A stretch of 64,000 nt of DNA from Pegea sp. RAD2-039 (lineage: Eukaryota; Chordata; Thaliacea; Salpida; Salpidae), in NCBI GenBank assembly GCA_034620365.1, contig JAQGEQ010000081.1:248001-312000 (forward strand). The letters are read 5' to 3'. Shown here piece after piece: positions 1 to 64,000 of this stretch. A program made the position numbers and the translations under genes. The notes below the pieces were generated by a model. It saw only the letters and a list, made by a program, of their open reading frames with translations. It was not told the DNA's origin and did no database searches. Positions within the stretch are counted from its first letter, which is position 1; each line of letters starts with the position of its first letter.

Positions 1-422
1 TAAGATATAATTACATTAAAGCTTTGAAAAAAATTAAAAAAAAATTTTGCTTAATAGAAATAACTCCTATAAGCAACAGAGAAAATTACGGAGCATGAAA
101 AAATCCTGTCTTTAAGTATGATGTATGTTGAAAAGATAAATGAAAACAACTACCAAAAGAAAGACAACTCAAAAAGACAAGCGCTAGACATCAACAATAT
201 TTATGTTTTAAAGTAATTTTATCAAAAATGTCATATACAATTGCATATTAGTTTAAATGAATTTGAATTTTTAAAGAAAATAAAATACTTGAAAAAAAAT
301 GAAATATATTAATAAATACTAACTACAGTCATTACTTATTCCCACAAATATTTTACGAAACAAATCATTATCATCTTTATTTTTATTATTTAAGACTTTG
401 TGTAACTATTTTAGTTAAAGAC
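1..422. other. Module sequence without gene
   Basis: It matches the ACAACTACCAAAAGAAAGAC and AATAAATACTAACTACAGTC words found at 13975-14200, 52505-52740 and 42270-42310. No ORF, hairpin or RNA gene seen. Confidence 0.5.
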
Positions 423-559
423 AACTGAATATATCAGTCCCAAAATTTTAGACGGAAGATGGGAAACTTCAATGTCCTATCAACTAGTAAAACTAACCTT
501 ATATATAAGGCTGTTTTAGTCTCAAATTTGTGGGTTGAAACAGAAAAAAGTAAAAGTCA
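423..559 (+). promoter_or_regulatory. Cassette A1 (promoter-like)
   Basis: Type example of family A. CAACTGAATATATCAGTC is a palindrome with AACTGA/TCAGT arms. About 65 bp later comes TTATATATAAGG, then TTTTAGTCTCAAATTTGTGG and GTTGAAACAG. The order palindrome, TATA-like box, TTTGTGGGTT core recurs in all family members. No ORF follows. A promoter role is inferred from the spacing only. Confidence 0.6.
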
Positions 560-980
560 TAAAAATAAAGATTTAAAATTATTTTTTTTATTTGTTTGTA
601 TTATTATTTAATATTAAATTAAAGTTTTTAATGTATATTTAAAAAAAAAGAAAACATCTTTAGTAAATCTTGTATGTAAAAAAATATTTGTTTGTAAAAC
701 TAAAGTTAGAAAAGAATGTATTGGTCAAATAGAAGTAAATGTAATGAAAAACTCCTTGTCTTATTAGAGTGGAAATTAGATGTTAAGTAGTAATCAAATT
801 TTACCGAGTTAATTTATTGGGTTCAGCTCATATTATATCGCAAGGGATGCAGCTGGTAAAGCATTTCATTGTTTAAATAACTATATAATGAAATTGCGTA
901 AAAGTTTAAAGATTTTTCTTAAGTAAAATTAATTTGTTAAAATTATGTACTATTTACTCTTCATAAAAAATCTTATTTTT

Positions 981-1720: not shown

Positions 1721-1915
1721 ATGCTTCACTAGCATCAACGTTATTTGCCATAAAATCACCCGTAAGAATAAACGGGCTCCAAATATAAAAATTGTTTAAA
1801 TAATTGCATATACGCAAATTGAGTTTAATCTCAAACCTTGTTTATAAAGTGGTCTCAATCTTATGTTTGTGGTGCTCAAAAAGATAGCTTAAAAATTTTA
1901 TTAAGTAATTTTTAA
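1721..1915 (+). repeat. Cassette B2 (type example)
   Basis: TTCACTAGCATCAACG, then the hairpin CACCCGTAAGAATAAACGGG, 55-60 bp later TTTATAAAGTGG and, about 20 bp on, ATGTTTGTGGTGCTCAA. It has the same order as family A but a different palindrome. No ORF follows. Confidence 0.65.
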
Positions 1916-2169: not shown

Positions 2170-2400
2170 ATAGATCCCTAACAACTTCCAGTGTTTTTAG
2201 CTTGATATGTTCGTTTAAGTTTCTACTTTCATTAGAAAAACTATTTATATAATTTATAAGTTAAAACTTGTTCAACCTCAAAATAATAATCAATGGTAAT
2301 GTAAACAATAACACCTAAATATCAGGTAAAGCTTTGTTATACTCATCTTATATATTGTTGCATTTTAATCTCAGGTTTGTGAGTTAAAATTTTAAAATGT
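2170..2400 (+). repeat. Cassette C1
   Basis: Family C has TTCTACTTTCATTAGAAAAA, an imperfect palindrome AACTTGTTCAACCTC, then about 95 bp later CTTATATATTGTTGC and CAGGTTTGTGAGTTAAAA. The box-to-core distance is about 25 bp. Confidence 0.65.
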
Positions 2401-4062: not shown

Positions 4063-4195
4063 ACAAGTCTACACCACAAACACTAGACTATAAGATTCTT
4101 TTAAATAATAGTATACTCGTAACGTAACACATATGTACGGTTGGTTATATCAGGCAATCTTTTATTAATTTGAAGTTGAATAAGTTTCAACAAAT
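4063..4195 (-). repeat. Reverse cassette G1
   Basis: Read on the minus strand: palindrome GTTGAAACTTATTCAAC, about 75 bp later CTTATAGTC and TAGTGTTTGTGGTGTAGAC. This is the palindrome, TATA-like box, TGTTTGTGG order on the opposite strand to families A-D. Confidence 0.6.
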
Positions 4196-4435
4196 TTTAA
4201 TCAATATTACCAAGTAGAAATATGGTTACAATTCTATAGTTTTAATTTTAAATATTTTCCGGCTCAACTTGGTTTTCAATTTCTGGATAATAATTTTTAC
4301 TGGCGAAAATTTAATTAGTTGACAACGCACCTATTAGATTATGTACAAAAGTAAACTTTATAGTCTCTAAGCCTTTTTTGGTTCCCTTAAACAAAAAATT
4401 GCTTCTAAAGGATGAAAAATGTTTAGTTGTAAGCT

Positions 4436-4500: not shown

Positions 4501-4607
4501 ATATCTACATATATATGTATATTATAGAAACTGATTCAAACATTAAAATATATACATCCCATTCTTTTCATATGCTTAAATCAAAAACAATTTTGACGCT
4601 TACAATG

Positions 4608-6520: not shown

Positions 6521-6726
6521 TAGGATCACGAAGAATCTAATAATATCATAAAATCTTATCTCTTGCTTCATGTATGTTAAAAAGATGAACAAATACAACC
6601 ACCAGAAAAAAATATTCAGACGTTTTTTACACTCACAGTACTTGTTAACCTAATTAGAAACCGGCTTTAATAATAAATGATAATCAACAAAATCAACAAT
6701 CTGTAGAATGTCTGTGTTTTTAACTT

Positions 6727-6870
6727 CGACTGAATATATCAGTTTCAAAATGTTAGTATCAGGAGAATATCTTTCTGAATCTTGTCTACATGAAAAGAAG
6801 TTGACCTTATAAATAAGCCAGTTTTTGTATCATATTTGTGGGTTGAAACAGGAAAAAGTAAACTTCTTAA
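6727..6870 (+). repeat. Cassette A2
   Basis: Palindrome GACTGAATATATCAGTTTC, then TTATAAATAAG at 6808 and ATTTGTGGGTTGAAACAGG. Upstream arm, box and core are all intact. Confidence 0.7.
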
Positions 6871-7519: not shown

Positions 7520-7690
7520 CCTTGCCTTATTGTGTAATGACAATTTACCAAATAATCACCAGTAACAATAAACAGGTTGAAAAATAACAACAATAGGAAA
7601 AGATGGTTCAACACAGATTGTGTAGAATCTCAAAATTTCTATGTAAAGTGGCCTCAATCTTAAGATTGTTTTTTAGAAATACAGTAAAAA
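7520..7690 (+). repeat. Cassette B4, diverged
   Basis: AATCACCAGTAACAATAAAC is a decayed hairpin. AAGTGGCCTCAATCTTAAGA keeps the box-to-core stretch, but the core itself is lost. Confidence 0.55.
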
Positions 7691-7819
7691 CAACTGCACA
7701 ATTACATTTGTCAAAATAGAAACTTTTAATTTTAGTAATCCTGACATTCATAGCTAAAATATGTAGCAGCCACTCAAGCAAAGCAATCTGAGGGTAGCTA
7801 AATAATTTGATTTTTTCTT

Positions 7820-7990
7820 TCAACTGAAGATTTCAGTTTCAAAATTTTAGTTAAATTTCTTCAAAAATTTTTATTCAAGTTTACTAACCTTAATTTGAAA
7901 TTGAAAGTTTTATATAAACTTATTCCAGTTTTATGTCTGTGGGGTTAATACAAATGAAAGTTTATTTCGCTAAAAGCGGAAAATCTTTAT
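7820..7990 (+). repeat. Cassette A12, GGGGTTAATAC variant
   Basis: Palindrome CAACTGAAGATTTCAGTTTC, then TTATATAAAC and TATGTCTGTGGGGTTAATAC. It is followed by TTTCGCTAAAAGCGGAAAA, a hairpin (CGCT/AGCG) also seen at 37065, 5558 and 11720. Confidence 0.7.
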
Positions 7991-8876
7991 TTAAACTTTT
8001 CTTTTTCCTGTTTACTATTAAGATATACAATATCTTATTTGATGTTTACCGAATTTTTCTAATAAACATTTTTTGATTTCATTTTCACACAATAAAAGCC
8101 TTAAAATAAACAAAAAAAATATTTTTTAAGAGTTTTTCCATAAATATCTAACTGTAATTTCAAACGTTTTTTAATTCAACTTGTTTTTTAGAATATTGAT
8201 CATATGCTTTAATAGCAAAATCAAATACGTTTTTATTATCAAGAGCAACTTTTGAATTTTCGAGAAAAGGTATAATTAAAGATAAAATATAAAGTTTTGA
8301 GTGATCTTAAAATTGAAAAGTTAAAATTTTGTTTTATCTTTTTCTTCATTGCACCTTCCCTCACATTTTTTATAATAAATTAATAAATAAACTGTCGCGC
8401 TTAGCAACAATAGAATTGAATTTAGACTATTTAATATATTCCTACTTTCTACTGACAATCGTTTTACTAACATTTAATATAAATCTTATTAATGTATTTG
8501 AAATAATTATTCAATCAGACTAAATTTCTATAGAAGAATACAAACATAAGATAGAAACAAGAAGTTATTATTAGATTTAATAAGTTTAGATAAAATGCAC
8601 TAAGACATTAATATTTAAAAGCTAAAAAAAAGGTTTAGAGTTATGAAAAAAGTTGTTCTAAAAATTAAAAAATTTGTATTTGTTTAAAATTATCCTTTTT
8701 ATTTTATTTTGCAAATTGTGCTAAAACGGGAAAAGCAAGCAAAATTATAAATCCAAATGGTATTTTATTTTTAAATAGAATTTCTTTTTTAATTTGTTAA
8801 GAAATTAATGAATTAAAGGTCTGAAATTTGAATTTCACCAAAACTAACATGCTTTTAAAAAATTATGCTTTTAATT

Positions 8877-8980
8877 CAACTGAATGCTTCAGTTTCTTTC
8901 AACTAGTAAAAATAATCTTATAAATAAGCATGCTTTAGTCTCACATTTGTGAGATAAGACAGAAAAAAATAAAGTTACGA
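8877..8980 (+). repeat. Cassette A3, shortened
   Basis: CAACTGAATGCTTCAGTTTC is only about 20 bp from the TATAAATAAG region because of the 37-bp loss relative to A9. The core is degenerate (TTTGTGAGATAAGAC). Confidence 0.65.
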
Positions 8981-9807
8981 TAAATCCAAAATATGTTTTT
9001 TTTTAGTAAGATAATTATTTTTAAAATTTGTTAAGAAACTGATGAAATAGAAATCTGAAATTTATAATTATAATTACAAAACTTATGTGTTTTGTAGCAT
9101 AAAGTATAGTAAGATGTCATTATCCAGTTTATTTACTGATTTTTATCATTTTATTAGAATTAGAATCTTTTATAGTAGTTTCTATCGGTTTTTGATAGAA
9201 AGTAGCGTTTCTGTTTTTTGATTGCAATTTGAACAACTTACTTCAATAAATTGAAGAAATCTACTAATTTGTTTTACAAAAGAAAACAAAAATTAACTAA
9301 TTACAAATTTCTGAGAAAAAGAAACTTGTTTATGTAATAAATTTATTGAACAATTTTTCATAAATCTGTTAAATATCTTTTGATAAATCAATAACAGTAT
9401 GGTAACTTCTGACTAGTTCTTCTTATATGTAAATAAGGAGCTAAATTTAACAAAAAATCAAACTTTATATGGACTAGTTGTGTAAATTTCATCAGGATGG
9501 TTTTGTATAAATAGTTCTTCTTGACTAACCTCTTACAGTAGTTTTGAAAAAAAACCTAAAAAGGTTCAGCTGCAAAGAAACAACCATACAAAAGTAGAAT
9601 GACAATTAATTAATTTTAATAATAATTGATAAACAATAAAAACCAAAAATCTGTTAAAAATCTGTATTTTTAAATTCAAAAAAATGTTTCAGCTGAATTT
9701 TATGTAAAATACTGAAGTTAGTATTCCAAATATAAAAAAATCATGCTACTCCCAGTAAAAACCGAAAATGTTTATATTTGGTAATCAACAATGAGAAGCT
9801 AACTTTA

Positions 9808-9950
9808 ATTCAACTGAAGTTATCAGTTTCCAAATTCAACTTTCAAGAATCGAGTGATAAGAAATGTCAGTTGTAAAAATCCAGCCTTATAAGTAAAGCT
9901 GTTTCAATCTGATGTTTGTGGGTTAAAACAAATAAAAATTAATTTCATGA
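9808..9950 (+). repeat. Cassette A4
   Basis: CAACTGAAGTTATCAGTTTC, then TTATAAGTAAAG and GATGTTTGTGGGTTAAAAC. Near-identical to A10. Confidence 0.7.
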
Positions 9951-11283: not shown

Positions 11284-11430
11284 TACCAGTTTACACCAAA
11301 AACAGTAGATTATGAGAAGCTTATAACTAGCTTTTTACTGACTGAAAGAGATTAGGTACAACGGTCTGATTCGGTTGATTGACTAAATATCATATTAATT
11401 TGAAGTTGAATGGATTTCAACAAAACTGTA
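11284..11430 (-). repeat. Reverse cassette G2
   Basis: Palindrome GTTGAAATCCATTCAAC, CATAATCTACTG, and a core with one change (TGTTTTTGGTGTAAAC). Confidence 0.58.
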
Positions 11431-12927: not shown

Positions 12928-13060
12928 TTACCAGTTTACACCACAAACACTAGATTATATGAAGCTTTTATATAATAATAAACTCAAACTAAATTGCACT
13001 TCTAATAGATAATTGGTATTGAACTAATTTGGAGTTGAATAAATTTCAACAGACTTTAAT
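12928..13060 (-). repeat. Reverse cassette G3
   Basis: Palindrome GTTGAAATTTATTCAAC, CATATAATCTAG and TGTTTGTGGTGTAAACTGG. Confidence 0.62.
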
Positions 13061-13424: not shown

Positions 13425-13640
13425 ATCTTTAACAACTCCAAATGTTTTGTAGCTTGATTTGTTCGCTTATGTTTCTACTTTTATTAGAAAAACAATTCAT
13501 ATGAATTATTAGTTGAAACTTAATCAACTTCAAAATAATAAAAAACAATAAGACCTAAATATGTGGTAAAATATCGTTATACTCATGTTATATATTATTG
13601 CATTTTAATCTAAGGTTTGTGAGTTGAACTTTTAAATGTT
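13425..13640 (+). repeat. Cassette C2
   Basis: GTTGAAACTTAATCAACTTC palindrome, GTTATATATTATTGC and AAGGTTTGTGAGTTGAA. Partner of C6. Confidence 0.65.
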
Positions 13641-16381: not shown

Positions 16382-16530
16382 TTACCAGTTTACACCACAA
16401 ACAGTAGATTTTAAGAAGCTTCTATATAGCTATTGACTGAGTGAAAGAGATAAGGTACAATTGCCCAATTTAGTTGAAGTCTTAAACATCACAATAATTT
16501 GGAGTTGAATGAATTTCAACAAAATTTAAT
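16382..16530 (-). repeat. Reverse cassette G4
   Basis: Palindrome GTTGAAATTCATTCAAC and TGTTTGTGGTGTAAACTGG. The box is weaker (CTTAAAATCTAC). Confidence 0.6.
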
Positions 16531-18039
16531 CAATGTTACCAAGCAGTGTATCAACTACTACCTTCTAATTTGCATATGGTTTCCTCGTATAATTTTTAAA
16601 TATTAAAAATAGGTTATTTTCAATCATATAATAAATTAGACCATACTTGACGTTTTAAAGCTTAGATTAACTCTCTTTAGGATTTCTTTAAACAGAAAGT
16701 CGATTTTGTAATAGTAAATAGACATTAAGATCTGTAAAAAGAATTAACCTATTAGCGTTTGTTTTGATTATAAGTAGCTTGCTCAGCTGTTTTGAAATTT
16801 GTATTATTAGTATATATATTATTAGATGATATTTTAGATGAAATTGCTTGTTTCTAAGTTTAAAATGATTATTATTTAGGTTTAATTTTCCATGACTTTA
16901 TCTACTTTTTTCAGAATTTACTTAGACTAATTGTTATTAATAACAATTTGTATTACAATTAATTTTTTTATTATTAGAAATGTTATTCTTTTCATAAAAA
17001 TCCTTCAAAATTACTAGTTGTAATTTAATTGTCTAAAAAGTATTCATAAAATAATCAAAACTTTCTCATTTTCTCCAACAAATGAGCTTAATTGTTAATT
17101 TATAAACATTTGTTTATAATTATGTTTGTTGTGATCAACATTACTTAGACGTAGTAGTTAATCAAAATGTAAATCATATTTAAATAGAAACTTCAAACCA
17201 ATTTTTATCAAATTTTTATATATTCTGCATTAATTAAATTTATTTAGCATAAAATAGAGCGAAATTTATTTATGATTCGAAATTCATTTCTGGAAAAGAA
17301 CTTTCAAACTTTTGTTTTTAGAAAAAATTAGATTGTGTATAAATATACATAAAATAAATTAATTTGATTAAAAATTTAGTTAAAGCGTTTTTCGAATAAA
17401 TAAAAATTATCTTGTAAGAATCACAAATAATCTAATAATATCATAAAATCTCATCTCTTGCTACTTCAAACAATAATCCGTAGTTGAGCTCAACAAAATA
17501 GTATCTGCTCCAAATTCTTTCAAATTTTTCTTCCTAAAATATTGTAAGAGGTATCTAAAAAAATATAGAAAGAATCTAGAAAATACAGCAAACGAATTAT
17601 TTAATTGTATTGATGGTGCAATTTAAGGTATTTGAATAAGTAAGCACGATTAAGGGTAGGTAACACCTTATGACTACCAAAAGCACTTAATTTGTGTTTT
17701 ACTAACTTTGTAATACTTAATTACTTCTTAGTCACAAGAAATCAACAGATCAAAAATATTTTGTGGATCATGGTATCAAAAGGTTTAACTTAAAAATATT
17801 TTTAAACTTCAGCAACAACGTTTTTAAATAGAAACACGTCTTGTAAGCCATACAGAAAACTAAAAAGCATGAAAAAATCCTGTCTTTAAGTATGGTTTTA
17901 GTTGAAAAGATAAATGATAACAACCACAAAATAAAACGCAATTCTTGCACTTTCCGCAATTGTTAAACAGGTTAGAAGCGACTTTATTTAAAATTGATAA
18001 TCAATAATACCAAAAACTTGTCGATTAGTTTACTTTTAA

Positions 18040-18190
18040 TTCAACTGGAATTATCAGTTTTCAAATATATTACATTCAATCGAGAGAATATTTACCCTAA
18101 CTTTAATGTTAAGTGGAAAAGTCAAGCCTTATAAATAAGCCTGTTTTAGTCTCATGTTTGTGGGTAGAAACCGAGGAAAGTATACTTCTT
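18040..18190 (+). repeat. Cassette A5
   Basis: CAACTGGAATTATCAGTTTTC, TATAAATAAGCC and TCATGTTTGTGGGTAGAAAC. It is the last forward module before the inverted block. Confidence 0.7.
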
Positions 18191-18494: not shown

Positions 18495-18715
18495 GGATTT
18501 TAAAATTTCAACCCACAAACATTTAATTAGAATGCAATAAGATATAACATGATTATTGCGGTGCAAAAGATAGTTTTGAAGTTTTCCAAATGTTAACTAA
18601 TATTTTGAATTTGTATAAGTTTCAACTTATAGATTATATAAATAATAGAACTATAGAAAGTAGATACATAAGCAAAACATATCAAGCTATAAAACACTTA
18701 ACGTTGCTTAAGATA
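18495..18715 (-). repeat. Cassette C7, inverted
   Basis: On the minus strand: TTATATAATCTATAAGTTG, GTTATATCTTATTGC and AAATGTTTGTGGGTTGAAA. Its core matches family A better than family C, which links the two families. Confidence 0.6.
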
Positions 18716-19439: not shown

Positions 19440-20200
19440 ATTCAATCAAAATAAAATATATATCGATTTATTGATAAAATATCTTTTAGTTGCTGTAAAA
19501 ACTTGAAGTAATAAATCTTTATCAAATGTAAACGAGTAATTGTATGATTGTCGCTAGAAAAAATTTTAATCGATGATTTGAAAAATAAGTTTACCAAATT
19601 TTGGAAGATTTTTGAAGTCACGATTAGAAAATTATAAACAATCCTAGAAAAAAATTTCTTTAAAAAACTTGGTAAGTATCAATCAAAAATATTTTGTTTT
19701 TTGATAATAAGTAATAGAAAAATTAAAGTTAGAAAAGTATGTTTTCGGCTTTTAGCAAACTCAATTTTATTTGTATTAACCCCACAAACACAAAATTGAA
19801 AAAAGTTAATATAACAATTTGAGTTTCCTATGAAAACTAAGGCTATTTTTGATATTTGTTTAAGTATTCTTGTTTAATTTGAAAACTGAATTATTCAGTT
19901 GTATAAAGAATCGAACTCAATATACTCAAATTACTTTGATGAACGACGGTCAATTATGTTTGCTATGAGTGTCATACATGATATAATTTTAAGTTTTTGT
20001 TTTCCGACAACTCTAATTACAGAGAAGTGAAATTATTTCCTTCATTTAAAATTCTTTTGTATATATATTCCTAATTGTGATAAAATGGGAAGACAAACTA
20101 AATGATAAATTAAAGATGTAATTTACTTTTAAAATGAAAATTATTTTTTTAAGAGTCGTTAATAAAATTTTTAAGTAATTAATGAATTAATGAACTTAAT
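19440..20200 (+). repeat. Duplication with 43380-44080, copy 1
   Basis: The shared sequence includes CAAATTACTTTGATGAACGA, GCTATGAGTGTCATAC and TTTTCCGACAACTCTAATTA. The left part is an inverted cassette (19743-19902). The right part is in forward orientation, so the inversion edge itself was duplicated. Confidence 0.85.
19743..19902 (-). repeat. Cassette A13, inverted
   Basis: On the minus strand: CAACTGAATAATTCAGTTTTC, about 60 bp later TTATATTAAC, then TGTGTTTGTGGGGTTAATAC and GCTAAAAGCCGAAAAC. This proves the cassette architecture is kept in reverse. Confidence 0.7.
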
Positions 20201-27204: not shown

Positions 27205-28640
27205 ATGTGGCTCTCAACAAAAATAACTTTTAAATTTTATAAGGAAATTTCTTAAGGATAATGCATGTAATATAATTTCAAAATTATACTTTCTAAAATT
27301 AAATTGTAAAATTTTATGAAGTATATCTTTTAAAACACAATACCTTTACGATTTTAGTTTGACTCTAATATAGCTAGAAAGCAAATACTAACTATATGAA
27401 GAAACTCACATTTACCGTTTTTTCAATAAATGAAATAAAAGGTGAATATACTAAAGTTTATTTAACTTTAACAAAAAATAACTACATTAAAAATAACATA
27501 AAAATTTACAACTATCCCAAGTATTAGGAGAAAAAATTGGTTTTCTTAGTTTAACTATTCTTTAAATAATGTTATTTGAAAGTATTATTATCTTTAACAA
27601 ACAACAATCAGTAGATTAACAAAACTGAAATTTCTCTGCTACAATTTCTTTTTAATGTTTCTTACGAAAATTTTCTAACAAAAGAAAGTAGAATAATAAG
27701 TAAATGTTGTAGCGCTTCAGAACAACGACAGCAAATATATTTAAATTAGTCATAATTATCTAAACCGAGATATAAATTTCATTTCAATACAAAATCTTTT
27801 ATAATGCTTCACTAGCATCAATGTTATTTACCGTAAAATCACCCATAAGAAGAAACGGGCTCCAAATATAAAAACTTTCTGGATGGATGCATCTACGCAG
27901 ATTGCGTCAAATATCAAACCTTATATATAAAGTGGTGTGAAAATAATTTGCATTTTTCGCAGTTTAGAAAAAATATTCAACAAATAAATTGTAAAAAAAA
28001 GATTTTTAAAAATTTATTAAAAAATCAAAATAAAACTTTCTAATAAAAATCTTTTCTATAAATTAAACTTGTTATTACAGCAACTAATTTTGAAGAACTG
28101 TCTTGGTTGTTTTCTAATGCAATTATTTTATAGAATTTCGCCAATTAATAACTTTCATTTTAAGGAAAAAGAACTTTTCTAAGTAACAAAGTATTTATGT
28201 TTAAAAGTAACTTTAGGAAAAATGTCCTTACAAAATGCTTAAAAGTTTAAATGATTTTGAAATTTAAGGGAAACAAAAAACGTGAAAAACAATAGAATAT
28301 ATAAATAAATTCTATCTGCATTTTCTTTTCTAAGTCGATTTGTTAATAGTAAATAGAGATTAAGATCTACAAAAAATTAATCTATTAGCGTTTGTTTTAG
28401 ATTATAGGTAGCTTATTTAATATTGTGAATCACACAATTTCGTAATTTTTCGATTTTACTTTTTTTAAAAAAAAATCAAATAAGTTTAAAATAAATACAT
28501 AATTAATTTGAAGTTGGTAAGTATAACTGTTTTAAAATTTGAAATATTAGTAAATATATTATTATAAAAAGTTTCAAATGAAATTGTTTGTTTCTATGTT
28601 TACGTAATCTAAATTTTAATGATTTTAGTTAATTTGTTTT
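27205..28640 (+). repeat. Module block B-C, copy 2, with internal deletion
   Basis: It follows 1145-3150 closely but jumps at about 27937, from AAAGTGGT to GTGAAAATAATTTGCATTTTTCGCAG. It therefore loses the TTTGTGGTG core of cassette B and all of cassette C. Confidence 0.85.
27805..27940 (+). repeat. Cassette B5, truncated before the core
   Basis: The hairpin CACCCATAAGAAGAAACGGG has one mismatch in the stem. TTATATATAAAGTGG is intact, after which the block jumps to another module. Confidence 0.65.
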
Positions 28641-29680: not shown

Positions 29681-29850
29681 ATGCTTCACTAGCATAAAGA
29701 TTATTTACCATAAAATCACCCGTAACAACTAACGGGTTCCAAAAAAAATAACAATTTTGACGTTGATAAGCAGATTGTATTAAATCTCAAACATTATATA
29801 TCAAGTGGTTTTAATCCTATGTTTGTGGTGCTGAACAACAATAATTTTAA
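29681..29850 (+). repeat. Cassette B6
   Basis: Hairpin CACCCGTAACAACTAACGGG, TTATATATCAAGTGG and ATGTTTGTGGTGCTGAA. All three parts are kept. Confidence 0.68.
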
Positions 29851-30210
29851 AATTTTTTTAAGTAAATTTTAAAGGACAATTCGTGTAAATTAATATTAGA
29901 ATTATATTTTCTAAGAATCACTCAAAGTATCTTTTAGTCTTCTCACTCAAAAACACATAAACCCTTATAAAATATATCCTGTGCGTAATTATACTAAGGT
30001 GCACCTTATGAATACCAATAGTACTTACTCCGTGAACTTACTAACTTTGTAATATTTCATTTAAGATAGTCTAAAAATAAATGATAAACACTAAATAATA
30101 TAAATAAATACTAACTACAGTCTCTACTTCTTCACACAAATGTTTTACGAAACAAGTTGTTTTCATGTTTATTTTTATTATTATTATTCTTAGTATAGCT
30201 ATTATTATAG

Positions 30211-30355
30211 TCAACTGATTATATCAGTCTCAAAATGTTAAACGGAAGATGGGAAACTTCAAATAACCTTTCCACTGGTAAAGCTAACCTTATTAATAAG
30301 GCTGTTTTAGTCCCAAATTTGTGGGTTGAAAAATGAAAAAAGTAAAAGTCATGAA
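30211..30355 (+). repeat. Cassette A6
   Basis: Closest to A1, sharing AACGGAAGATGGGAAACTTC. The box reads TTATTAATAAGG and the core AAATTTGTGGGTTGAA. Confidence 0.7.
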
Positions 30356-31535: not shown

Positions 31536-31670
31536 TCAAGTCTACACCACAAACACTAGACTATAAGATTCTTTTAAATAATAGTATACTCGAAACGTAA
31601 CACATATGTACGGTTGGTTATATCAGGCAATCTTTTATTAATTTGAAGTTGAATAAGTTTCAACAAATTT
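31536..31670 (-). repeat. Reverse cassette G5
   Basis: Partner of G1 in the 2-kb duplication. Core TGTTTGTGGTGTAGAC intact. Confidence 0.6.
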
Positions 31671-32849: not shown

Positions 32850-33000
32850 TTTTACCAGTTTACACCAAAAACAGTAGATTATAAGAAGCTTACAAATAGC
32901 TTTATACTGAACGAAAGTGATTAGGTACAACGGTCTGATTCGGTTGATTGACTAAATATCATATTAATTTGAAGTTGAATGAATTTCAACAAAACTGCAA
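32850..33000 (-). repeat. Reverse cassette G6
   Basis: Palindrome GTTGAAATTCATTCAAC, TTATAATCTACTG, core TGTTTTTGGTGTAAAC. Confidence 0.58.
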
Positions 33001-34200: not shown

Positions 34201-34299
34201 TTTTATTTAAGTTGAAAAAATAAACATAAACAAATACCGAAAGAAAGACAATTCAGAAAGACAAGAACCAGACAGCAAGCACAAAAAGACAATTACTTC

Positions 34300-34400
34300 A
34301 CTCATCTCAAACCTTCTATATAAAGTGGTCTCAATCTTATGTTTGTGGTGCTCAAAAAGATAGCTTAAAAATTTTATTAAGTAATTTTTAAAGACAATCA
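34300..34400 (+). repeat. Half cassette B8, box and core only
   Basis: CTATATAAAGTGGTCTCAAT and ATGTTTGTGGTGCTCAA without the upstream hairpin. The AAAGACAATTCAGAAAGAC module precedes it. Confidence 0.65.
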
Positions 34401-34639: not shown

Positions 34640-34875
34640 ATCTAGATCCTTAGCAACTTCAAGCGTTTTGTAGCTTGATATGTTCGCTTATGTTTCTACT
34701 TTTATTAGAAAAACAATTTATATAAATTATAAGTTGGAACCATGTTCAACCTCAAAATAATAATTAATCATAATAATAATTACAATACCCAAATATAATG
34801 TAAAAATTCGTTATACTCATGTTATATATTATTGCATTTTAATCTAAGGTTTGTGAGTTAAAATTTTAACATGTT
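34640..34875 (+). repeat. Cassette C3
   Basis: CATGTTCAACCTC, GTTATATATTATTGC and AAGGTTTGTGAGTTAAAA. Confidence 0.65.
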
Positions 34876-38039: not shown

Positions 38040-38270
38040 TCTAGATCCTTAACAACTTCAAGTGTTTTGTAGCTTTATATGTTTGCTTTTGTTTCTACTT
38101 TTATCAGAAAAAGAATTTATATAATTTATAAGTTGAAACTTGTTCAACCTCAAAATAACAATAATCGATAATGATAGTAAGAATACCCAAATATCAGGTA
38201 AAATTTTTTTATACTCATCTTATATATTATCGCATTTTAATCTAATGTTTGTGAGTTAAAGTTTTAAAAT
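38040..38270 (+). repeat. Cassette C4
   Basis: GTTGAAACTTGTTCAACCTC, CTTATATATTATCGC and AATGTTTGTGAGTTAAAG. It has the TGTTTGTG core of families A and B. Confidence 0.65.
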
Positions 38271-41504: not shown

Positions 41505-42440
41505 AATAAGTCGAAATTCTAGAATATTCAAGTCTTATTACCCAAGGCAATGTTTATAAATAATGCATTTAAAAATAAGTTTTCTGCATACTAATATCTT
41601 AAATGTTGCCTGAACAGATTCGATGTTTTTGACAATTTTTTCAATAAACTAAAAACCAAGAGGAAACTAATTAAATTAGGTTATATGTGATTAGAATTAA
41701 CTACATTAAAGCCTTAAAGGTTGACTTTTACCCCACATTTATTAGTAAAAAGTGTTTTTGTTACTTTAAAAAGCGACGTTTTTTCTTTAAAAATTTCATA
41801 TAGAATTTTATAATCTATTTCAAACAATAATCCGTAGTATAGCTCAATAAAATACTATCTGCTCCAAATTCTATTAAATTTTTCTTCCAAAATATTGTTA
41901 GAGATATCAAAAAAAATCTAGAAATATTAAATAGATACAGCAAACGAATTATTTAATTGTATTGATGATATAATTTAAAATATTACATTTTGTAAACACG
42001 TTTAAATGTAGGTTACACCTTATTACTACCACAGGTACTAAATCTATGAAGTTACTAACTTTGTAATACTTAATTATTTCTTAGTCAAAAAAAAATCAAA
42101 AGATCAAAAATATTTTGTGCATCACGGTATCAAAAGGATTAACTTAAAAATATTTTAAAACTTCAGCAACAACATTTTTTGACTAAATAGAAACACCTCT
42201 CATAAGCAATACAGAAAATTACAAGGTATGAAAGAATACTGTCTTTAATTATAATGTATGTTGAAAAGATAAATAAAAACATCCATCAAAAGAAAAACAA
42301 ATCAAAAAGACAACCACTAGACAACAACCACAAAAAGTCAATGGTTGGACTTTCCGCAATTGTTAAACTCATTACAAGCGACTTTATTGATAATTGATAA
42401 TCAACAATACCAACAACCAACTGAATAGTTTACTTTTCTT

Positions 42441-42562
42441 TTAACTGAAATTATCAGTTTCCAACATGAATAAGATCTAAAAAAAATTGACCGAAAAGTT
42501 CACAACTTTGATGGTAACAGGAAAAGTCAAGCCCTATAAATAAACCTGTTTTAGTCTCATGA
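42441..42562 (+). repeat. Cassette A7, core lost
   Basis: AACTGAAATTATCAGTTTCC and CTATAAATAAAC are present, but similarity stops inside TTTTAGTCTCATG, exactly where the core should begin. Unique DNA follows. Confidence 0.65.
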
Positions 42563-42565
42563 TTA

Positions 42566-43380
42566 ATGTAGTTTGCAAAATTGTTTTACAAAATCTCGTA
42601 AAAAGAAACAGACATGTTTGAACAAAATCTTATCTAAATTATTATTCTACACATGATATTAACGACCACTTAAATATTATGTTAAATATTTTTTATTTCT
42701 CTGAGTTTTCCACTAACGCTTGTTGTTTGAAGTATGACTTTTATATAATTAACTACACATGTCTTTGCTTTTCTATATCCATACAACAAATTGCAAAAAA
42801 AAAATTAATTTAACCGAAAATAAGTTTTACAACCTTTTTTATATTGTAGTAGTTTATAAATACATATAGAGATTTTAAGACTTTTCTAAATAAATATATT
42901 TAAAATAAAAACATTTAAGTAGTTGGTAGAAAGTGAAAAACATATTTTCTATTAACAGAAACCTAAAAATTTTGTTTAAACCACCAAATAATTTTCAGAT
43001 AAACATAAAAGAATATATAATTATTTATTTCTGTAAAATTTTCCCTTTATCGCCACTTAGAGGAATTATTACTATAATCTTACAATTTTAAAATTGTTAA
43101 CTTCTACAAATAACGTATGGATTATCATTACATATTTAGCTCTAATAACTTGTTTTTGGTTTTTTGGATACAATTTGGAAATGAAGACTTTTCAGCGCAG
43201 AAAGCTTTTAAGTAAACATATAAGAAGATTGTTTAAGATTAAGGAAGCATATTGATTGGAAATATCATCTGAATCATTTGGTGGTGAAACTAAAAAGACA
43301 ATGAAAACATCAAAAAAATTTAGAGTTAAAAATAATAAACTTTTTAATGATTGTAAAATTACATCATTTAAATTATTTTT
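42566..43380. other. Unique A+T-rich stretch between modules
   Basis: No gene is supported. A short plus-strand frame near 43178-43260 reads MKTFQRRKLLSKHIRRLFK, which only faintly recalls the second half of a C2H2 finger and has no Cys pair. Confidence 0.4.
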
Positions 43381-44080
43381 ATTACTTTAACAATAAACTT
43401 TTGTTTACAAAATCAAAAAAAATGAATATGTTATGTACTTCAACAAATGCGTTAGATGTTTATAAATTTTTAGATTTTCGCTAGAAAAAATTATAATCTA
43501 TAATTAAAAAACTAAGTTTACCAAGTTTTGGAAGATTTTTAAAATCAAAATAGAAAATTATAAACAATCTTAGAAAAATTTTTTTTTGTTCTATGGCGTT
43601 TTTGTTCAGAAAGCAAGCCATCAAATTTTATTTAAATTACTTGGTAAGTATCAATCAAATATATTTTGTTTTCTGATAATAAGTAATGGTCAAATTAAAG
43701 TTACAAAGTATGTTTTCGGCTTTTAGCGAAATCAATTTTATTTGTTTTAACCTCACAAACACCTAATTTAAATAAGATAATATATCAATTCTAATTTCCA
43801 ATGAGTATTTGCCCAAATTACTTTGATGAACGACGGTGAAATATTTTTGCTATGAGTGTCATACCTGATATAATTTTATTTTTGTTTTCCGACAACTCTA
43901 ATTACCGAAAGTGAAATTATTTTCTTCATTTAAAATTTATATATATATATATTCCTAATTGTTCTAAAATGGGAAGACAAACAAAATGTTGAATTCAAGA
44001 TGTATTTTGTTTTTAAAATGAATGTTATTTTTAACAGTTGTTAATAAAATTGTTAAGAAATTGATGAATTAAGGAACTTA
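43380..44080 (+). repeat. Duplication with 19440-20200, copy 2
   Basis: Same order and orientation as copy 1, including the inverted TTAACCTCACAAAC core at 43747-43760. About 90 bp holding the palindrome of the cassette are missing. Confidence 0.85.
43713..43790 (-). repeat. Cassette A14, inverted and partial
   Basis: Reverse GTGTTTGTGAGGTTAAAAC and GCTAAAAGCCGAAAAC. The palindrome is missing compared with A13. Confidence 0.6.
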
Positions 44081-44550: not shown

Positions 44551-44760
44551 GCTTCACTAGCATTAATGTCATTTACCGTATAATCACCCGTAAGAAGAAA
44601 CGGGCTCCAAAAAGAGAAACTATCTGGATGGTTGTATTTACGCAGATTGCGTCAAATCTCAAAACTTACATATAAAGTGGTCTCAATCTTATATTTATGC
44701 TGCTCAAAAAAAAATCTTCAAAATTTTATCAAATAATTTTTTAATGACAATAAGAAAATT
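44551..44760 (+). repeat. Cassette B9
   Basis: Hairpin CACCCGTAAGAAGAAACGGG and CATATAAAGTGG are intact; the core is mutated to ATATTTATGCTGCTCAA. Confidence 0.65.
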
Positions 44761-44999: not shown

Positions 45000-45225
45000 A
45001 TCCTCAATAACTTCCAGTGTTTTTAAGCTTGATATGTTCGCTTATGGTTCTACTTTTATTAGAAAAACTATTTATATAATTGATAAGTTGAAACTTGTTC
45101 AACTTCAAAATAATAATCAATGAAAATCTAAACAATAACAGCTGAATTTCAGATAAAACTTCGTTATACTCATCTTATATATTATTGCATTTTAATCTAA
45201 GGTTTGTGAGTTAAAGTTTTAAAAT
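45000..45225 (+). repeat. Cassette C5
   Basis: GTTGAAACTTGTTCAACTTC, CTTATATATTATTGC and AAGGTTTGTGAGTTAAAG. Confidence 0.65.
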
Positions 45226-47170
45226 GTTTACTTACTGCAAATTTTGGTAAATCTTTTAATTTTGAAATCATGCAGTTTTTGAAAGATTTTATTATTCATA
45301 AATTCCTTATCTTTCTTACTACAGTCCTACTAATTTTGAGTTTTAGTTGCAATGTGAAATTTAAAAAAACTTTTCAATAAACTAAACTTGTTATTAAAGC
45401 AACTAATTTTGAAAAACTGTCTTGTTTGTTTTCTAATGCATTTTTTTTATAGAATTTAATCTCTTCAATTAATAACTTTCATTTTTAAGAACAATAACTT
45501 TTCTAAGTAACAAATTATTTATGTTTAAAAGTATCTGTAGGCAAAATGTCTTTTAAAAATGCTTAAAATTATAAATAATTTCGAAATTAAAGGGAAATAA
45601 AAAACTTGAAAAACAATAAAATATATAAATAAATTCTATCTGCATTTTATTTTCCAAGTTGATTTGTTAACAGTAAATAGAGATTAAGATCTACAAACAA
45701 TTAATTTATTAGCGTTTGTTTTAGATTATAAGTAGATTATTTAATAATGTGAAGCACACAAATTCGTAATTTTTTTATTTTACTTTTTTTTAAATAAAAA
45801 AAAAAAAATAAGTTTAATATAGATACATAATCTTCTTCATGAGATTTAACATAAAATTTTAATTAATTTTAAGTCAGTAAGTTTAACTGTTTTGAAATTT
45901 GAAATATTAGTAAATAAATCATTAGAAACCATTTCAAATGAAATTGTCTTTTTTTATATTTACGTAATCTAATTTTTACAGACTTTTGTTAATTCATTTT
46001 ACTTATAATGAATTATATAACAACTAAAATTTATATAAATAAGGATGAATTTACTCTCTAAAAATCCTTCAAAATTATTATTTGTATTTTGATTTTATAA
46101 TAAATTTTTCTATGAAATATTATTAAAATAATCTAAACTTTATCAGTTTTATCCAAAAACTTTTTGAAATATATTTTGTAATCAAATATACTTTAAAGTA
46201 AATTGCAATTTCCATGAAAGAAAAATAATACTTTTTTCATTTAATTGATAAAAACAAGAAGTTATTATTAGATTTATTTAATTTAGATGAAATGTAGAAA
46301 AAATTTAATACTTTATAGCTAATAAAAAGGTTTACATCTATCAATAAAGTATTTCTAAAAATTAAAATAAATTTTCGTAGTTTAAAATTATCTCTCTTTA
46401 TTATATTTTGCTAACTGTGCTAAAACGGGAAGAAAAGCAAAATGATAAATTCAAAATGAAGTTTAAATTTAAAAAGAAAAATTTGTATTTAAAATTTCTT
46501 AAGGAATTGATTTATAATTTTGGGAAATATATAATTGCAAATAAGAAACGTTTTCCTTATGGATAAAATACAACAAAGACGTCATTATCCAGTTTTCTAC
46601 TGATTTTTAATATATCATTAGATTTAACTCTTTCATGGTAGTTTTTAAATGTTTTCGATAGAAGGTAGCGTTACTGGTTTTTATTTTTAATATGAACAAT
46701 TTGCTTCGATAAAATATAGAAATCTACGATTGTTTTACAAAAGTAAACAACTGTTAATTGAAAAACTTAAAACTTAAAAACTTAAAAAAACTGTTCTTAA
46801 AATACAACCACAAATTTAATTTCAAAAAAAAATATTAAACATTTTAGAATTATGAAATATTTTGAGCATAGTAAAAGGTTTCAAACAAAGCAATGAATAT
46901 GTTGAAAACTTTATTCATATTGTCTACATTAAAAAACTTTATTCTGCAACATAAATACTACAAGACGTTATTATTCATTTGTACACAATATTTATCTTTT
47001 ATATGCGTTTAGCATTTCATTGCACATACAGTTTTTGGTAGCAGTTTAGAGTTATCCCACATTTATGAGCCAAAACTAGTTTTTTTCCCTATAAAAAAGC
47101 GTTTTTTCTTTAAAAAATTTAAATACATAAAAAAAATTACCAATAATCTGTAGAAAGTTTTGCTTTTACT

Positions 47171-47300
47171 TTAACTGAATTTATCAGTCTCCAAATCTAA
47201 AACTGGTTTAGGGAATCATTGTTTAATCCATTTTACTTGCTGTTAAAAACCTACAAACATTATAAATAGGCGTGTTTTAGTTTCAAATTTGATTCATGGT
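47171..47300 (+). repeat. Cassette A8, diverged
   Basis: AACTGAATTTATCAGTCTCC and TTATAAATAGGCGTG are clear. The core has decayed to TTTCAAATTTGATTCATGG. Confidence 0.6.
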
Positions 47301-48129
47301 TCAAATATGGTTCAAAATACAAATTGCAAACTCTAAATTGACCTACACATTTTTATTTTATTTTATAAATTAAAAACCGGGAAGAAATTATCATAATTAG
47401 ACTATTTCTGATTAGATATAACTACATTAATGCTTTCAAGTTTAACAACTATCCCAAATTTATTAGTTAAAAGTGTTTTTGTTACTTTGAAAAGTGATGT
47501 TTGTTTTTTTAAAAATTTCATTTAAAATGTTTTTAATCTATTTTATATAATAATCCGTAGTTGAGCTCAACAAAATACCATCTGCTACAAATTCTTTCAA
47601 ATTTTTCTTTCCAAAATATTGTAAGAGATATCTGAAAAAAATATAGAATGATTAGAAGATAGAAAAAACGAATTATTTAATGGTATTGTTTACGTAATTA
47701 AAAATATTTTTAAAGTATCAGATTAATTTGAAGTTGAATGAATTTCAACAAACTTTAATCAATATTACCGAACAGTGTATCAACTACTACTGTTTATCTT
47801 GCACATGGTTTCTTCATATAATATTCAAACGTAAAAAAAAAGATAAAATGTTTTCCACATTTGTAGAATCATTCTTCAAAGAAATTAAACTATATTTGAC
47901 TTTTTAGAGCTTAGATTAACTCTCTATAGGATTTTTTTAAAAGAATATCGATTTTGTAAGTATAGATAAAGATATGAAAAAATTTAACTTAGTAGCGTTT
48001 GTTTTGGATTATAAGTAGCTTATTTAGCTGCTTTGAAATTTTGTATTATTAGTAAATATATTATTGACACAATATTCTTAATGACTTTGCTTGTTTCTAG
48101 TTTTAAAATGACTATCATTTTGGTTTAAT

Positions 48130-51463: not shown

Positions 51464-51590
51464 TACCAGTTTACACCACAAACACTAGATTATATGAAGC
51501 TTTTATAATAATAATAAACTCAAACTAAACTCCACTTCTAATAGATAATTGGTATTGAACTAATTTGGAGTTGAATAAATTTCAACAGAC
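51464..51590 (-). repeat. Reverse cassette G7
   Basis: Partner of G3, with the full core TGTTTGTGGTGTAAACTGG. Confidence 0.62.
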
Positions 51591-51959
51591 TTGAAATAAT
51601 ATTACCAAGGAGATATATGGTCATAATGCTATAATTTTGCATCTAAGTTTTACTAACTCAACTTTTTTTTCAATTTCTGGATTATATTTTTCACTAGCGA
51701 TATTCAAAATTTTTTTATGCACCTAGATTTTGTTGAATTATCTACAAAGGTAAACTTTAAAAGATACACTAAATGGTTAATATGTCTGTTTTTGTTGGAT
51801 CTCTTATACAAAAATTTGTTTCTAATGTAATGAAAACATTTAGTATGTTTTGTAAAATAATTAATCTTTTTTCTACATTTTAAATTTAACTCAAGAAATC
51901 AGTAACAGTGTTTAATAAAAATATAAAATAACTATAATTAATAATAAATTTTTTTTATG

Positions 51960-52175
51960 ATATATATCTTTAAAAACTCCAAATGTTTTGTAGCTTGATC
52001 TGTTCGCTTATGTTTCTACTTTTATTAGAAAAACAATTTATATAAATTATTAGTTGAAACTTAATCAACTTCAAAATAATAAAAAACAATAAGACCTAAA
52101 TATTTGGTAAAATTTCGTTATACTCATGTTATATATTATTGCATTTTAATCTAAGGTTTGTGAGTTGAACTTTTA
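51960..52175 (+). repeat. Cassette C6
   Basis: Near-identical to C2 within the 5.4-kb duplication. Confidence 0.65.
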
Positions 52176-54948: not shown

Positions 54949-55100
54949 TTTTACCAGTTTACACCACAAACAGTAGATTTTAAAAAGCTTGTATATAGCT
55001 ATTGACTGAGTGAAAGAGTTAAGGTACAATTGTCCGATTCAGTTGAAGTCTTAATCATCACATTAATTTGAGGTTGAATGAATTTCAACAAACTTTAATC
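54949..55100 (-). repeat. Reverse cassette G8
   Basis: Partner of G4. Core intact, box CTTTTTAAAATCTAC degenerate. Confidence 0.6.
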
Positions 55101-56605: not shown

Positions 56606-57272
56606 ATTTGTTAAATTATCAACAAAAGTCAACTTTCAAAGTAAATTATAAAGTTTCTACAAATTTCTTTTCGGGTTTCATAAACAAAATCTTTTCCTAA
56701 CGGAAGAAAAATATTTAGTTGAAAATCGACAGATATAACTGTTGTCTGTTTTGGCTTATACAACTTCTTGAATGAGAAAATGATCGGTGTCTATCTTAGA
56801 AACTGATCTAAACTTTAAAACTTTTGCTTCTTTTTCATTGCTTGATTTTGGTTAGTTTCAGTTTTTATAACAAATGTTATTTTGAATTATATTTTGTAAT
56901 CAAATATACTTAAAAGTAAATTGCAATTTCTATAAAAGAATACAAACATAAGATAAAACAAGAAGTTATTACTAGATTTATTGAGTTAAGATGAAATGTA
57001 CTAAAAAATTATTAATCTAAAGCAAGTAGAAAGGTTTAGAGTTATCAAAAAAGTATTTCTACAAAATAAAATATCTTGATTAGTTTAAAATTACCTTTCT
57101 CATTTTTTTGCTAATTGTGCTAAAACAGAAAAGCAAGCAAAATTATAAATACTAATGGTAATTTATTTTCAAATAGAATTTGTTTTTTAATTTGTTAAGA
57201 AATTGATGAATTATAGGTCTGAAATTTGAATTTCACCAAAACTAACATGCTTTTAAAAAATTATGCTTTTAA

Positions 57273-57415
57273 TTCAACTGAATGTTTCAGTTTCTAAATT
57301 TGCTCATAATACTCAATCATATTAACCTTTCTTTCAACTTGTAAAAATAATCTTATAAATAAGCCTGCTTTAGTCTCACATTTGTGGGATAAAACAGAAA
57401 AAAATAAAGTTACGA
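57273..57415 (+). repeat. Cassette A9
   Basis: CAACTGAATGTTTCAGTTTC with full spacing to TTATAAATAAGCC and CATTTGTGGGATAAAAC. It shows the longer ancestral form of A3. Confidence 0.7.
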
Positions 57416-57850: not shown

Positions 57851-58370
57851 TTAACTAATTACAAATTTCTGAGAAAAATAAACTTGTTTATGTAAAAAAC
57901 TTATTGAGCAATTTTTCATAAATCTGTTAAATATCTTTTGATAAATCAATAACAGTTTGGTAACTTCTGACTAGTGCTTCTTATATGTAAATAAGAAGCT
58001 AAATTTAACAAAAAATCGAACTTTATATTGACTAGTTGTGTAAATTTCATCAGGATGGTTTTGTATAAATAGTTCTTCTTGATTAACCTCTTACAGTAGT
58101 TTTGAAAAAAAAAAAAACTGAAAAGGTTCGGCTGCAAAAAAAATACTATACAAAAGTAGAATGACAATTAATTAATTTTAATAATAAATGATAAACAATA
58201 AAAACCAAAAATCTGTTAAAAATCTGTATTTTTAAATTCAAAAAAATGTGTCAGCTGACTTTTATGTAAAATACTGAAGTTAGTATTCCAAATAGAAAAA
58301 AGTCATGCTACTCTCAGTAAAAACCGAAATTGTTGATATTTGGTGATCAACAATGAAAATCTAACTTTAA

Positions 58371-58510
58371 TTCAACTGAAGTTATCAGTTTCCAAATTCA
58401 CCTTTCAAAAATCGAGTGATAAGAAATGTCAGTTGAAAAAATCCAGCCTTATAAGTAAAGCTGTTTCAATCTCATGTTTGTGGGTTAAAACAAATAAAAA
58501 TTAACTTCAT
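58371..58510 (+). repeat. Cassette A10
   Basis: CAACTGAAGTTATCAGTTTC, TTATAAGTAAAG and TCATGTTTGTGGGTTAAAAC. Partner of A4 in the 3.1-kb duplication. Confidence 0.7.
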
Positions 58511-59843: not shown

Positions 59844-59990
59844 TTTTACCAGTTTACACCAAAAACAGTAGATTATGAGAAGCTTATAAATAGCTTTATA
59901 CTGAACGAAAGAGATTAGGTACAACGGTCCGATTCGGTTGATTGACTAAATATCATATTAATTTGAAATTGAATGAATTTCAACAAAACT
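59844..59990 (-). repeat. Reverse cassette G9
   Basis: Partner of G2. The palindrome has one mismatch (TTGAAATTCATTCAAT). Confidence 0.58.
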
Positions 59991-61284: not shown

Positions 61285-62590
61285 GTTTCTTATTTATTCA
61301 TTATATATTTTAAAATAGAATTGTCATAATTGTAAGTTGAAACAGAGAAAAGTAAATCTCATGAGAACAAAAGACAAAAATAAGTATTATATAAATGACG
61401 AAATTATTTTTCTTGGTATGTTTTGAATTATTTTCACTAAAAGTTCAACTTCAGAAAGAATGCATAGAAAAGTAAAATAATAAGTAAACGATGCAACTAA
61501 GTTGTTGCACCTTATAAAATCAACAGCAAATTATTTAAATAAGTGAATTTTAAACAGAGATAGAAGTTTAGTTCAGTTTCAAAATGTTAGAAAAAAGACA
61601 AGAACCTTGTAAGACTTTTATATATGAAAGATATTGACCTTATAAATAAGCCAGATTTAGTCTCATATTTGTGGATTGAAACAGAAAAAAGTAAAGTTCT
61701 TGAAAACAAATTTTTAGAAAGGAAGTTCCTTATTTATTCATTATATATTTTAAAATAGAATTATTTTAATTTAAAGTTGAAACAGAGAAAAGTAGATTTC
61801 ATGATGACAAAAGACAAAGATAAGTTTTACATAAGTGACAGCAATATTTTTCCTGATTTGATTTGAATTATTTTCACTAAAAGTGCTTTGTATAGTTGTG
61901 AACTGCAATGCAGTCCTAAATGCATTCCAATGGTTTTTAAACGAGATTAGGATTTTTTGATTTTAGTTTCATTATAATTAATTTATTTTGATAATTTAAT
62001 AAATATACAAAATAATACACGTATAGTAATCAATAACTAAAATTTATGTAAACTTTTTGATTTAACAATTTAATACAAGAGCATTCTAATAGCATATTTT
62101 TTAACTTTTATTTTGCTTTTTTTAATATTAAAATATAAATTATATCTGATTGATACTTAGCGAAATTTTGAAATAAAATTTTTTGGTTAATTTTCTAGAT
62201 AGAAAAGAATAGCACTACAAAATATGAAATTAATTTTTTTTGACAATTTTCTAATTCAAGTTGTTATCAATTTATATATTATTTTTCTACTAGCTAGAAT
62301 CCAATAAGTTTGCAACAACAAGCGCATTCGTTAAATTATCAACAAAAGTAAACTTTGAAGGTAAATAATAAATATTCTAAATTCTTTTTGTTGAATTTCC
62401 TAAAAAAAAATTTTTCTAAGGAGGAAAAAAAAACATAGTTGAAAACTGACAGCTATAACTGTTGTTTGTTTTGACTTTTATAGCTTTTTGAATAAAAAAA
62501 TGATTTGTTCATCATGGAAACTGATCTACAAAATAAGCTTTTGCTTCGTATTGATTACTTATGTTTAAATCAAGAACAAACTTAACGCAA
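61285..62590 (+). repeat. Duplication with 34945-35840, copy 2, partly tandem
   Basis: The left 160 bp occur twice in a row here (61285-61445 and 61720-61880), around cassette A11. The right part runs through GTGAACTGCAATGCAG to the D motif at 62444. Confidence 0.83.
61571..61705 (+). repeat. Cassette A11
   Basis: The palindrome is reduced to CAGTTTC, while TTATAAATAAGCC and CATATTTGTGGATTGAAAC are intact. A second partial copy (61181-61260) keeps GCTGAATATATCA but has lost the box. Confidence 0.65.
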
Positions 62591-63567: not shown

Positions 63568-63712
63568 TTTTACCAGCTTACACCACAAACAGTAGATTAT
63601 AAGAAACTTTTATATAGCTATATACTGAGTGAAGAAGAATAAGTACATCTATCCAATTCAAATAAAGTGCTAAATAACTATTTATTTTGAAGTTGAATGA
63701 ATTTCAACAAAC
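63568..63712 (-). repeat. Reverse cassette G10
   Basis: Palindrome GTTGAAATTCATTCAAC, TTATAATCTACTG and TGTTTGTGGTGTAAGCTGG. All parts intact. Confidence 0.62.
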
Positions 63713-64000
63713 TTTAATCAATATTACCAAGCAGTGTATCAACTACTACTGTTTATCTTCCACATGGCTTCCTCATATAATATTCGAACGTAAAAAATAG
63801 GTTTATTATCATTTTTTAAAGAAATTAGATCAAATTTGACTTTTTAAAGCTTATATGGACTCTCTATAGGATCTTTTTAAACAGATTGTCAATTTTGTTA
63901 TAATAAATATAGATTACGAATTGAAAAAAAATAACAACTTTTTAACGTTTGTTTTGGATTATTAGCAGCTTATTTAGCTGTTTAGAATTTGTATTAAAAG

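Follow-up and report, generated by a model that had tools for sequence, protein, structure and literature searches.

A clustered family of predicted Sm-class snRNA genes with U7-like layout in an animal genome

Introduction

Spliceosomal and U7 snRNAs are normally under strong constraint and come in few kinds. According to excerpts of PMC7026596, U7 snRNA is about 60 nt long and combines a target-pairing 5' region, an Sm-type site and a 3' stem-loop that is not conserved in sequence. SmY RNAs, in the excerpted account of PMC11229312, have twelve genes in C. elegans and two stem-loops, the first of them conserved. The type-I piRNA clusters of nematodes appear in excerpts of PMC6436959 as large clusters of many small Pol II units with snRNA-derived promoters.

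Here we describe recurring cassettes in a window of 64,000 nt (the whole stretch of DNA analysed, C92:248001-312000, in a genome of 105.7 Mb and 387 contigs), which we consider very probably to be Sm-class snRNA genes of U7 layout, predicted on the strand opposite to that of a first-pass annotation; this assignment concerns anatomy and class, not guide function. They share with U7 snRNA, as excerpted, the size, the order of arm, Sm-type site and 3' stem-loop and a stem not conserved in sequence, but they are many diverged copies with differing arms and without a match over the cut-off to the Rfam U7 model, and their Sm-like site is of the spliceosomal rather than the U7 type. Like nematode SmY RNAs they are short, of the Sm class and present in several diverged copies; unlike them, they have a single hairpin and far more numerous loci, and the animal carries an ARMC4/ODAD2 gene. 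Type-I piRNA clusters, in the excerpted account, are likewise made of many small units with snRNA-derived promoters, whereas the cassettes have an Sm-like site and hairpin, a full PSE with a TATA box, and far fewer loci. The U1, U2 and U6 promoters of the same genome share the PSE sequence (and, for U1 and U2, the TATA position), but drive known spliceosomal RNAs. No description of such a cluster was found in the open-licence PMC literature.

Results

The first-pass annotation had proposed that a short palindrome, a spacer, a TATA-like box and a core recur in that order, and this order was found at all seven positions that it listed (528, 1865, 2375, 6836, 18156, 29820 and 58476), the core being TTTGTGG, or TTTGTGAG near 2376. 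As it had also noticed, box and core are common to families whose palindromes differ (among the copies compared). The core pattern TGTTTGTGG has 15 occurrences in the window; with 2264 genome-wide (105.7 Mb; 1319 for the reversed pattern), a stretch of this length should hold about 1.4. The core is the reverse complement of the PSE (CCACAAAC...) of the U1, U2 and U6 genes of the same genome, which puts the gene on the opposite strand and makes the core a PSE, not the start site for which it had been taken; the start is predicted about 57 nt past the core on that strand. The palindrome, formerly an upstream element, lies in RNA orientation at about PSE position 95-125, right behind an Sm-like site, and would form the RNA's 3' hairpin. 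The suggestion of arrayed promoters for non-coding RNA is supported; the roles given to the parts are not.

Matches over the cut-off were 13 of 15 for U6, 19 of 19 for U2 and 18 of 19 for U1, with no U1, U2 or U6 match on the cluster contigs. The same PSE motif stands in 7 of the 7 U6, 7 of the 8 U2 and 5 of the 5 U1 promoters read; in all but U2 copy L058 it consists of CCACAAAC (exact or with 1-2 changes) followed by ACTAAACT-like sequence. Counted by hand with the first C of the PSE as position 1, the TATA-like box lies within positions 27-35 in U1 and U2 (degenerate in 4 of the 7 U2 promoters having a PSE) and at 32-40 in U6. The cassettes have theirs at 27-35, the U1/U2 and not the U6 spacing, and therefore that of Pol II; judged by this spacing, they carry the Pol II form of the snRNA promoter. 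Taken from Rfam-defined gene starts, RNAs begin at position 56-58 in U1, 57-58 in U2 and 63-64 in U6 (58 in two lower-scoring U6 copies).

The difference of about 5 bp in PSE-to-TATA spacing between U1/U2 and U6 promoters (L045-L064) is possibly a polymerase code; for the nematode P. sambesii, excerpts of PMC6436959 report Pol II snRNA loci without TATA. In family A copies, including the one at 512-543, CTGTTTCAA stands directly upstream of the PSE and is similar to GTTTC in the nematode piRNA motif. The U1, U2 and U6 promoters read lack it there, although CTGTTTTA occurs a few bases farther upstream in U2 copy L054.

A PSE matrix trained only on U1, U2 and U6 promoters (16 of 20, leaving out three near-duplicates and L058) was scanned over 264 kb of the cluster. 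When a TATA box was demanded and stretches rich in G+C were masked, there were 53 hits in the cluster at threshold 11, 2 in the reversed cluster, 0 in one dinucleotide shuffle and 0 in control loci (36 kb), and 35, 2, 2 and 0, respectively, at threshold 12. With the mask alone, the cluster yielded 66 hits versus 25 (reversed), 11 (shuffle) and 4 (control loci); with neither mask nor TATA requirement, the reversed cluster exceeded the real one (101 versus 76).

Copies were numerous and clustered. A profile of box and core matched 120 times at E < 0.01 in the window, 200 kb of C92 and 18 kb of C134 and C283, and had no matches in two 6-kb control loci; setting aside 6 matches that could not be anchored and 12 identical to another left 102 copies, 64 of which differ by at least 10% (a few of these are anchored a few bases off) and 63 of those 64 were long enough for the Sm/hairpin test below. 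A covariance model gave 133 matches at E ≤ 0.01 in 44 sources (copies used for building it match by construction) and none in 10 control loci and 11 U6/U2 loci. These comprised 36 in the window, 86 in the 200 kb of C92 (83 once three cassettes split over locus ends, and so counted twice, are allowed for) and 11 in the 18 kb of C134 and C283, so that 264 kb of C92 including the window hold 119 cassettes. In the window, 23 matches lie on the minus and 13 on the plus strand (Table 1); a script found the Sm-like site and hairpin in 31 of the 36, a few in doubtful register, and not in the other 5, and further broken copies have lost the PSE or have a hairpin of doubtful register.

Beyond the scanned loci, a family C promoter pattern matched 71 times in the genome, with all 71 on four contigs (C92, 53; C134, 14; C283, 3; C96, 1) and 0 matches for the reversed pattern. 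As 22 of the 71 fall inside the 264 kb with 119 cassettes, extrapolation gives about 290 loci for C92 and a total of about 380, hence likely several hundred; the total may be too high because of possible separately assembled alleles. One locus (L044, C283:30001-38000) is collinear with the window from about 13231, sharing five cassettes at constant offset (99% identity at the one compared), and may represent such alleles or a recent duplication.

Table 1. Cassettes and their parts in the window. Rows from 1755..1882 onward rest on a covariance-model match and the Sm/hairpin script, except 61637..61685.
Feature	Coordinates	Strand	Basis or remark
PSE region, cassette of core 528	512..543	-	PSE position 1 = base 533; motif as in U1/U2/U6; model match 418-543
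TATA box TATATATAA, PSE positions 27-35	499..507	-	position as U1/U2 (27-35), not U6 (32-40); hand count
Predicted transcription start, PSE position 57-58	476..477	-	inferred from Rfam-defined U1 (56-58) and U2 (57-58) starts
Variable 5' arm	446..477	-	arm fold and pair tests
Sm-like site ATTTTGGG	439..446	-	sequence, script
3' hairpin GACTGA(TATAT)TCAGTT	423..439	-	script; pair counts over copies
Cassette, family B	1755..1882	-	hairpin GCCCGT/ACGGGT
Cassette, family C	2254..2392	-	
Cassette, family D	4064..4197	+	hairpin GTTGAA/TTCAAC
Cassette, family A	6723..6851	-	
Degenerate cassette	7555..7681	-	neither an intact PSE nor Sm/hairpin found
Cassette, family E-like	7817..7952	-	
Cassette, family A, shortened	8832..8962	-	hairpin register doubtful
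Cassette, family A	9807..9931	-	
Cassette, family D	11286..11427	+	
Cassette, family D	12931..13056	+	
Cassette, family C	13506..13632	-	
Cassette, family D	16385..16526	+	
Cassette, family A	18038..18173	-	
Cassette, C-like	18503..18632	+	hairpin register doubtful
Cassette, family E	19772..19905	+	
Partial cassette, family B	27836..27945	-	PSE lost
Cassette, family B	29715..29838	-	
Cassette, family A	30208..30334	-	
Cassette, family D	31537..31670	+	
Cassette, family D	32855..32996	+	
Family B promoter	34233..34358	-	without Sm/hairpin
Cassette, family C	34727..34866	-	hairpin mismatched
Cassette, family C	38126..38264	-	
Degenerate cassette	42438..42581	-	
PSE and TATA	43743..43871	+	Sm/hairpin not found
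Cassette, family B	44583..44710	-	altered PSE (GCATAAAT)
Cassette, family C	45081..45219	-	
Cassette, degenerate PSE	47168..47309	-	with hairpin
Cassette, family D	51466..51592	+	
Cassette, family C	52047..52173	-	
Cassette, family D	54954..55095	+	
Cassette, family A	57271..57397	-	
Cassette, family A	58369..58493	-	
Cassette, family D	59849..59990	+	hairpin register doubtful
Family A promoter (PSE and TATA)	61637..61685	-	3' hairpin cut off; outside the 36 model matches; box and core profile
Cassette, family D	63573..63714	+	hairpin register doubtful

The predicted RNA has a recurrent layout, in which an Sm-like site (A-T3/4-G-R in most copies; others have, for example, ATTTAG or a longer run of T) is followed at a near-fixed distance by a 3' hairpin with a stem of 5-8 bp. 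Both are in place in 50 of the 63 distinct full-length copies (100 shuffles: mean 7.0, maximum 13; neighbouring DNA: 6 of 64 upstream, 11 of 62 downstream), with position windows chosen after inspection of the copies. Where the hairpin is convincing, the distance from PSE position 57 to the hairpin's end mostly comes to 53-68 nt; the arm takes 28-46 nt (median 33.5, 50 copies).

Stem pairing was counted in an alignment of 38 copies, chosen partly for a detectable hairpin from 59 of 64 in which a first script had called one (several misplaced): 83.6% of cells pair in the named stem, compared with 14.7-48.2% after sliding it. Both sides of the stem have changed in 29 cells versus 11.8 in shuffles, confined to 2 of the 6 pairs (A-U/G-C and C-G/U-A); in the same alignment the number of pairs with double changes (2 versus 1.8) and that of further pair types (5 versus 7.3) were not above shuffles. 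RNAalifold predicted zero pairs from these 38 copies, in which the hairpin is short and family B does not share the register of the others; pairs of the named structure were therefore counted instead. Two inner pairs fail in 6 rows, which is the number of family B rows, and the stem of family B is a different one, of ACCCGT/ACGGGT type and in another register. Between families, the sequence of the stem changes while its position and pairing stay, which is the behaviour of an RNA stem.

A 5' stem-loop was sought in 50 arms, which showed no gain in folding over shuffles (mean z -0.20, with controls at +0.31 and -0.18). Family C departs from this in part: its arms can form a short 5' stem (ACCT..AGGT, ACCTGA..TCAGGT) whose sides change together. 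Exact matches to the arms on either strand were not in excess in control loci (mean 11.28 versus 11.21 shuffled) or snRNA loci (6.94 versus 7.74), and a genome search with one family C arm (at most 3 mismatches) gave 38 matches, all 38 on cluster contigs, and no target. At gathering score the window had no Rfam match, and in bases 1-20000 there was no U7, SmY or SL match at E ≤ 1 (one chance match only); the U7 model had 3 matches in the genome at E ≤ 1, none over the cut-off and none on C92, C134, C283 or C96.

The check that the first-pass annotation had proposed, of box and core conservation against the spacers, was run as identity relative to flanks in 48 non-overlapping pairs (99 of the 102 copies had enough flank). 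The PSE exceeded its flanks (+0.054, P = 9.5e-8, 48 pairs), as did the TATA box (+0.025, P = 0.027, 48 pairs) and the Sm/hairpin part (+0.025, P = 0.028, 47 pairs), whereas the spacer, that is, the arm, fell below them (-0.063, P = 0.0015, 47 pairs; lowest of 20 flank control windows, -0.032); the P values are uncorrected and seven regions were tested, so that only the PSE and arm results are firm. In family B, neither TATA nor Sm/hairpin exceeded the flanks. Arms were below flanks in 7 of 7 pairs for family B, 7 of 9 for D, 7 of 15 for A, 7 of 12 for C and 1 of 4 for E, and the extra arm divergence is thus carried mainly by families B and D. Indels may add misalignment to these comparisons and pairs of one family have common history; positive selection on the arms is a possibility rather than a result.

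The surroundings are A+T-rich (G+C 21-25% across most 2-kb steps of the window) and repetitive. Self-repeats make up 85% of the window, and long flanks are common to members of one family, so that the earlier description of the flanks as unrelated does not wholly hold. That no ORF follows the copies was borne out: the only ORF of at least 110 aa (ATG, GTG or TTG start) in the window lies in a minisatellite. Minisatellites with a 20-bp unit (TGGTTGTTGCTGGTTGCTAA-like) occur inside the array at 20967-23867, 49374-50256 and 11626-11721, and strand asymmetry is strong with them (G+C skew 0.53 at 22001-24000). A distinct repeated element, the hairpin CAACAGCGACAGCTAGCGGATGTTG followed by TGATTTACAAATAA, has 7 copies in the first 20 kb (3699, 5025, 5379, 10913, 12556, 14387 and 16011) and is possibly another small RNA or a MITE. 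ARAGORN called no tRNA in the window; a fragment at 33850-33890 on the minus strand, without such a call, presumably resembles tRNA-Gly. The C92 cluster also contains C2H2 zinc-finger ORFs (L033:3288-4172, L034:5859-6434, L035:277-1242 and L037:6410-7084) with a common N-terminal stretch (a Pfam scan covered the L035 ORF). Elsewhere, the assembly has animal-like genes for a fibronectin-III/Ig repeat protein and for ARMC4/ODAD2, an outer-dynein-arm docking protein, and three Argonaute-family loci (G000:C1:4599191-4600209, C11:1008927-1010184 and C3:1729834-1730901); the fragment on C11 is closer to Ago and that on C3 to Piwi.

Discussion

Together, these results suggest the following gene. A PSE, comprising CCACAAAC and about 14 more nt and presumed to be the SNAPc site, would be followed by a TATA box, whose PSE position of 27-35 is that of U1/U2 and hence of Pol II genes, and by a start near 57; the transcript would then run through a 28-46-nt 5' arm that folds in no consistent way and an Sm-like site to a 3' hairpin with a 5-8-bp stem. 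The predicted product, at about 55-70 nt, would match U7 snRNA in size and layout. By analogy with U7, such an RNA, if transcribed, would most likely assemble with an Sm ring into a small RNP whose 5' arm pairs with another RNA. The cluster would have been amplified by duplication, with more than 100 paralogues seen and several hundred likely. The cassettes are real, ordered and gene-like, and would make up a novel and unusually numerous type of Sm-class snRNA gene; they may be a U7-like family that has expanded greatly and whose arms are diversifying.

Several other explanations bear on the same evidence. The self-repeats, the minisatellites, the several broken copies and the marginal conservation of TATA and Sm/hairpin would all suit a selfish or decaying satellite-like array of duplicated snRNA-type pseudogenes without product; we nevertheless hold this to be unlikely, in that paired copies conserve the PSE much more than their flanks and most distinct copies (the 50 of 63) keep the Sm-like site and hairpin in place.

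It is quite improbable that the cassettes are an independent analogue of nematode type-I piRNA genes, with snRNA-type promoters producing short capped precursors whose 5' arm, and not the Sm/hairpin part, is loaded into Piwi. Nematode piRNA promoters derive from the SNAPc motif (excerpts of PMC6436959), the loci here are clustered, the arms variable and the C3 fragment nearer Piwi than Ago; but the excerpts describe no Sm site or hairpin in piRNA genes, and both would be left without a role. The loci, moreover, extrapolate to hundreds here versus the more than 10,000 given for C. elegans in the literature, and no T at one arm position is common to the four families tabulated (T is present at position 57 in 92% of family B, and at 62 and 64 in 87-93% of family C).

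SL RNAs or SmY-like RNAs serving trans-splicing are improbable to a similar degree, although size class, Sm-like site and PSE fit and the short 5' stem of family C arms is followed by GGT-like sequence. An SL leader is expected to be constant, whereas the arms differ between and within families and present no constant 5' leader with a splice donor. SmY RNAs have two stem-loops, the first conserved (excerpts of PMC11229312), whereas the 50 arms, family C partly excepted, fold no better than controls, and neither SL nor SmY was among the Rfam matches in bases 1-20000. That transcription starts at the core on the strand first read, downstream of the palindrome, is scarcely credible: the box-to-core distance does resemble a TATA-to-start distance, but the core is the U1/U2/U6 PSE in reverse complement, with the TATA box at the U1/U2 offset.

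Returning to Sm-class snRNA genes of U7 layout, a more far-reaching version is speculative and rather unlikely: that the U7 design has been turned into a guide-RNA arsenal of several hundred short Sm-ring snRNPs from one locus, alike in promoter, Sm site and hairpin, with arms that outpace the surrounding DNA in divergence and are selected for changing targets, such as transposons or other selfish transcripts. The cassettes as described here come with a predicted strand, 5' end and length at dozens of loci. If the assignment is true, the cluster would represent a guide-RNA system of a new kind or else a remarkable instance of unchecked gene amplification, and would bear on the recruitment of snRNA promoters for guide RNAs in nematodes.
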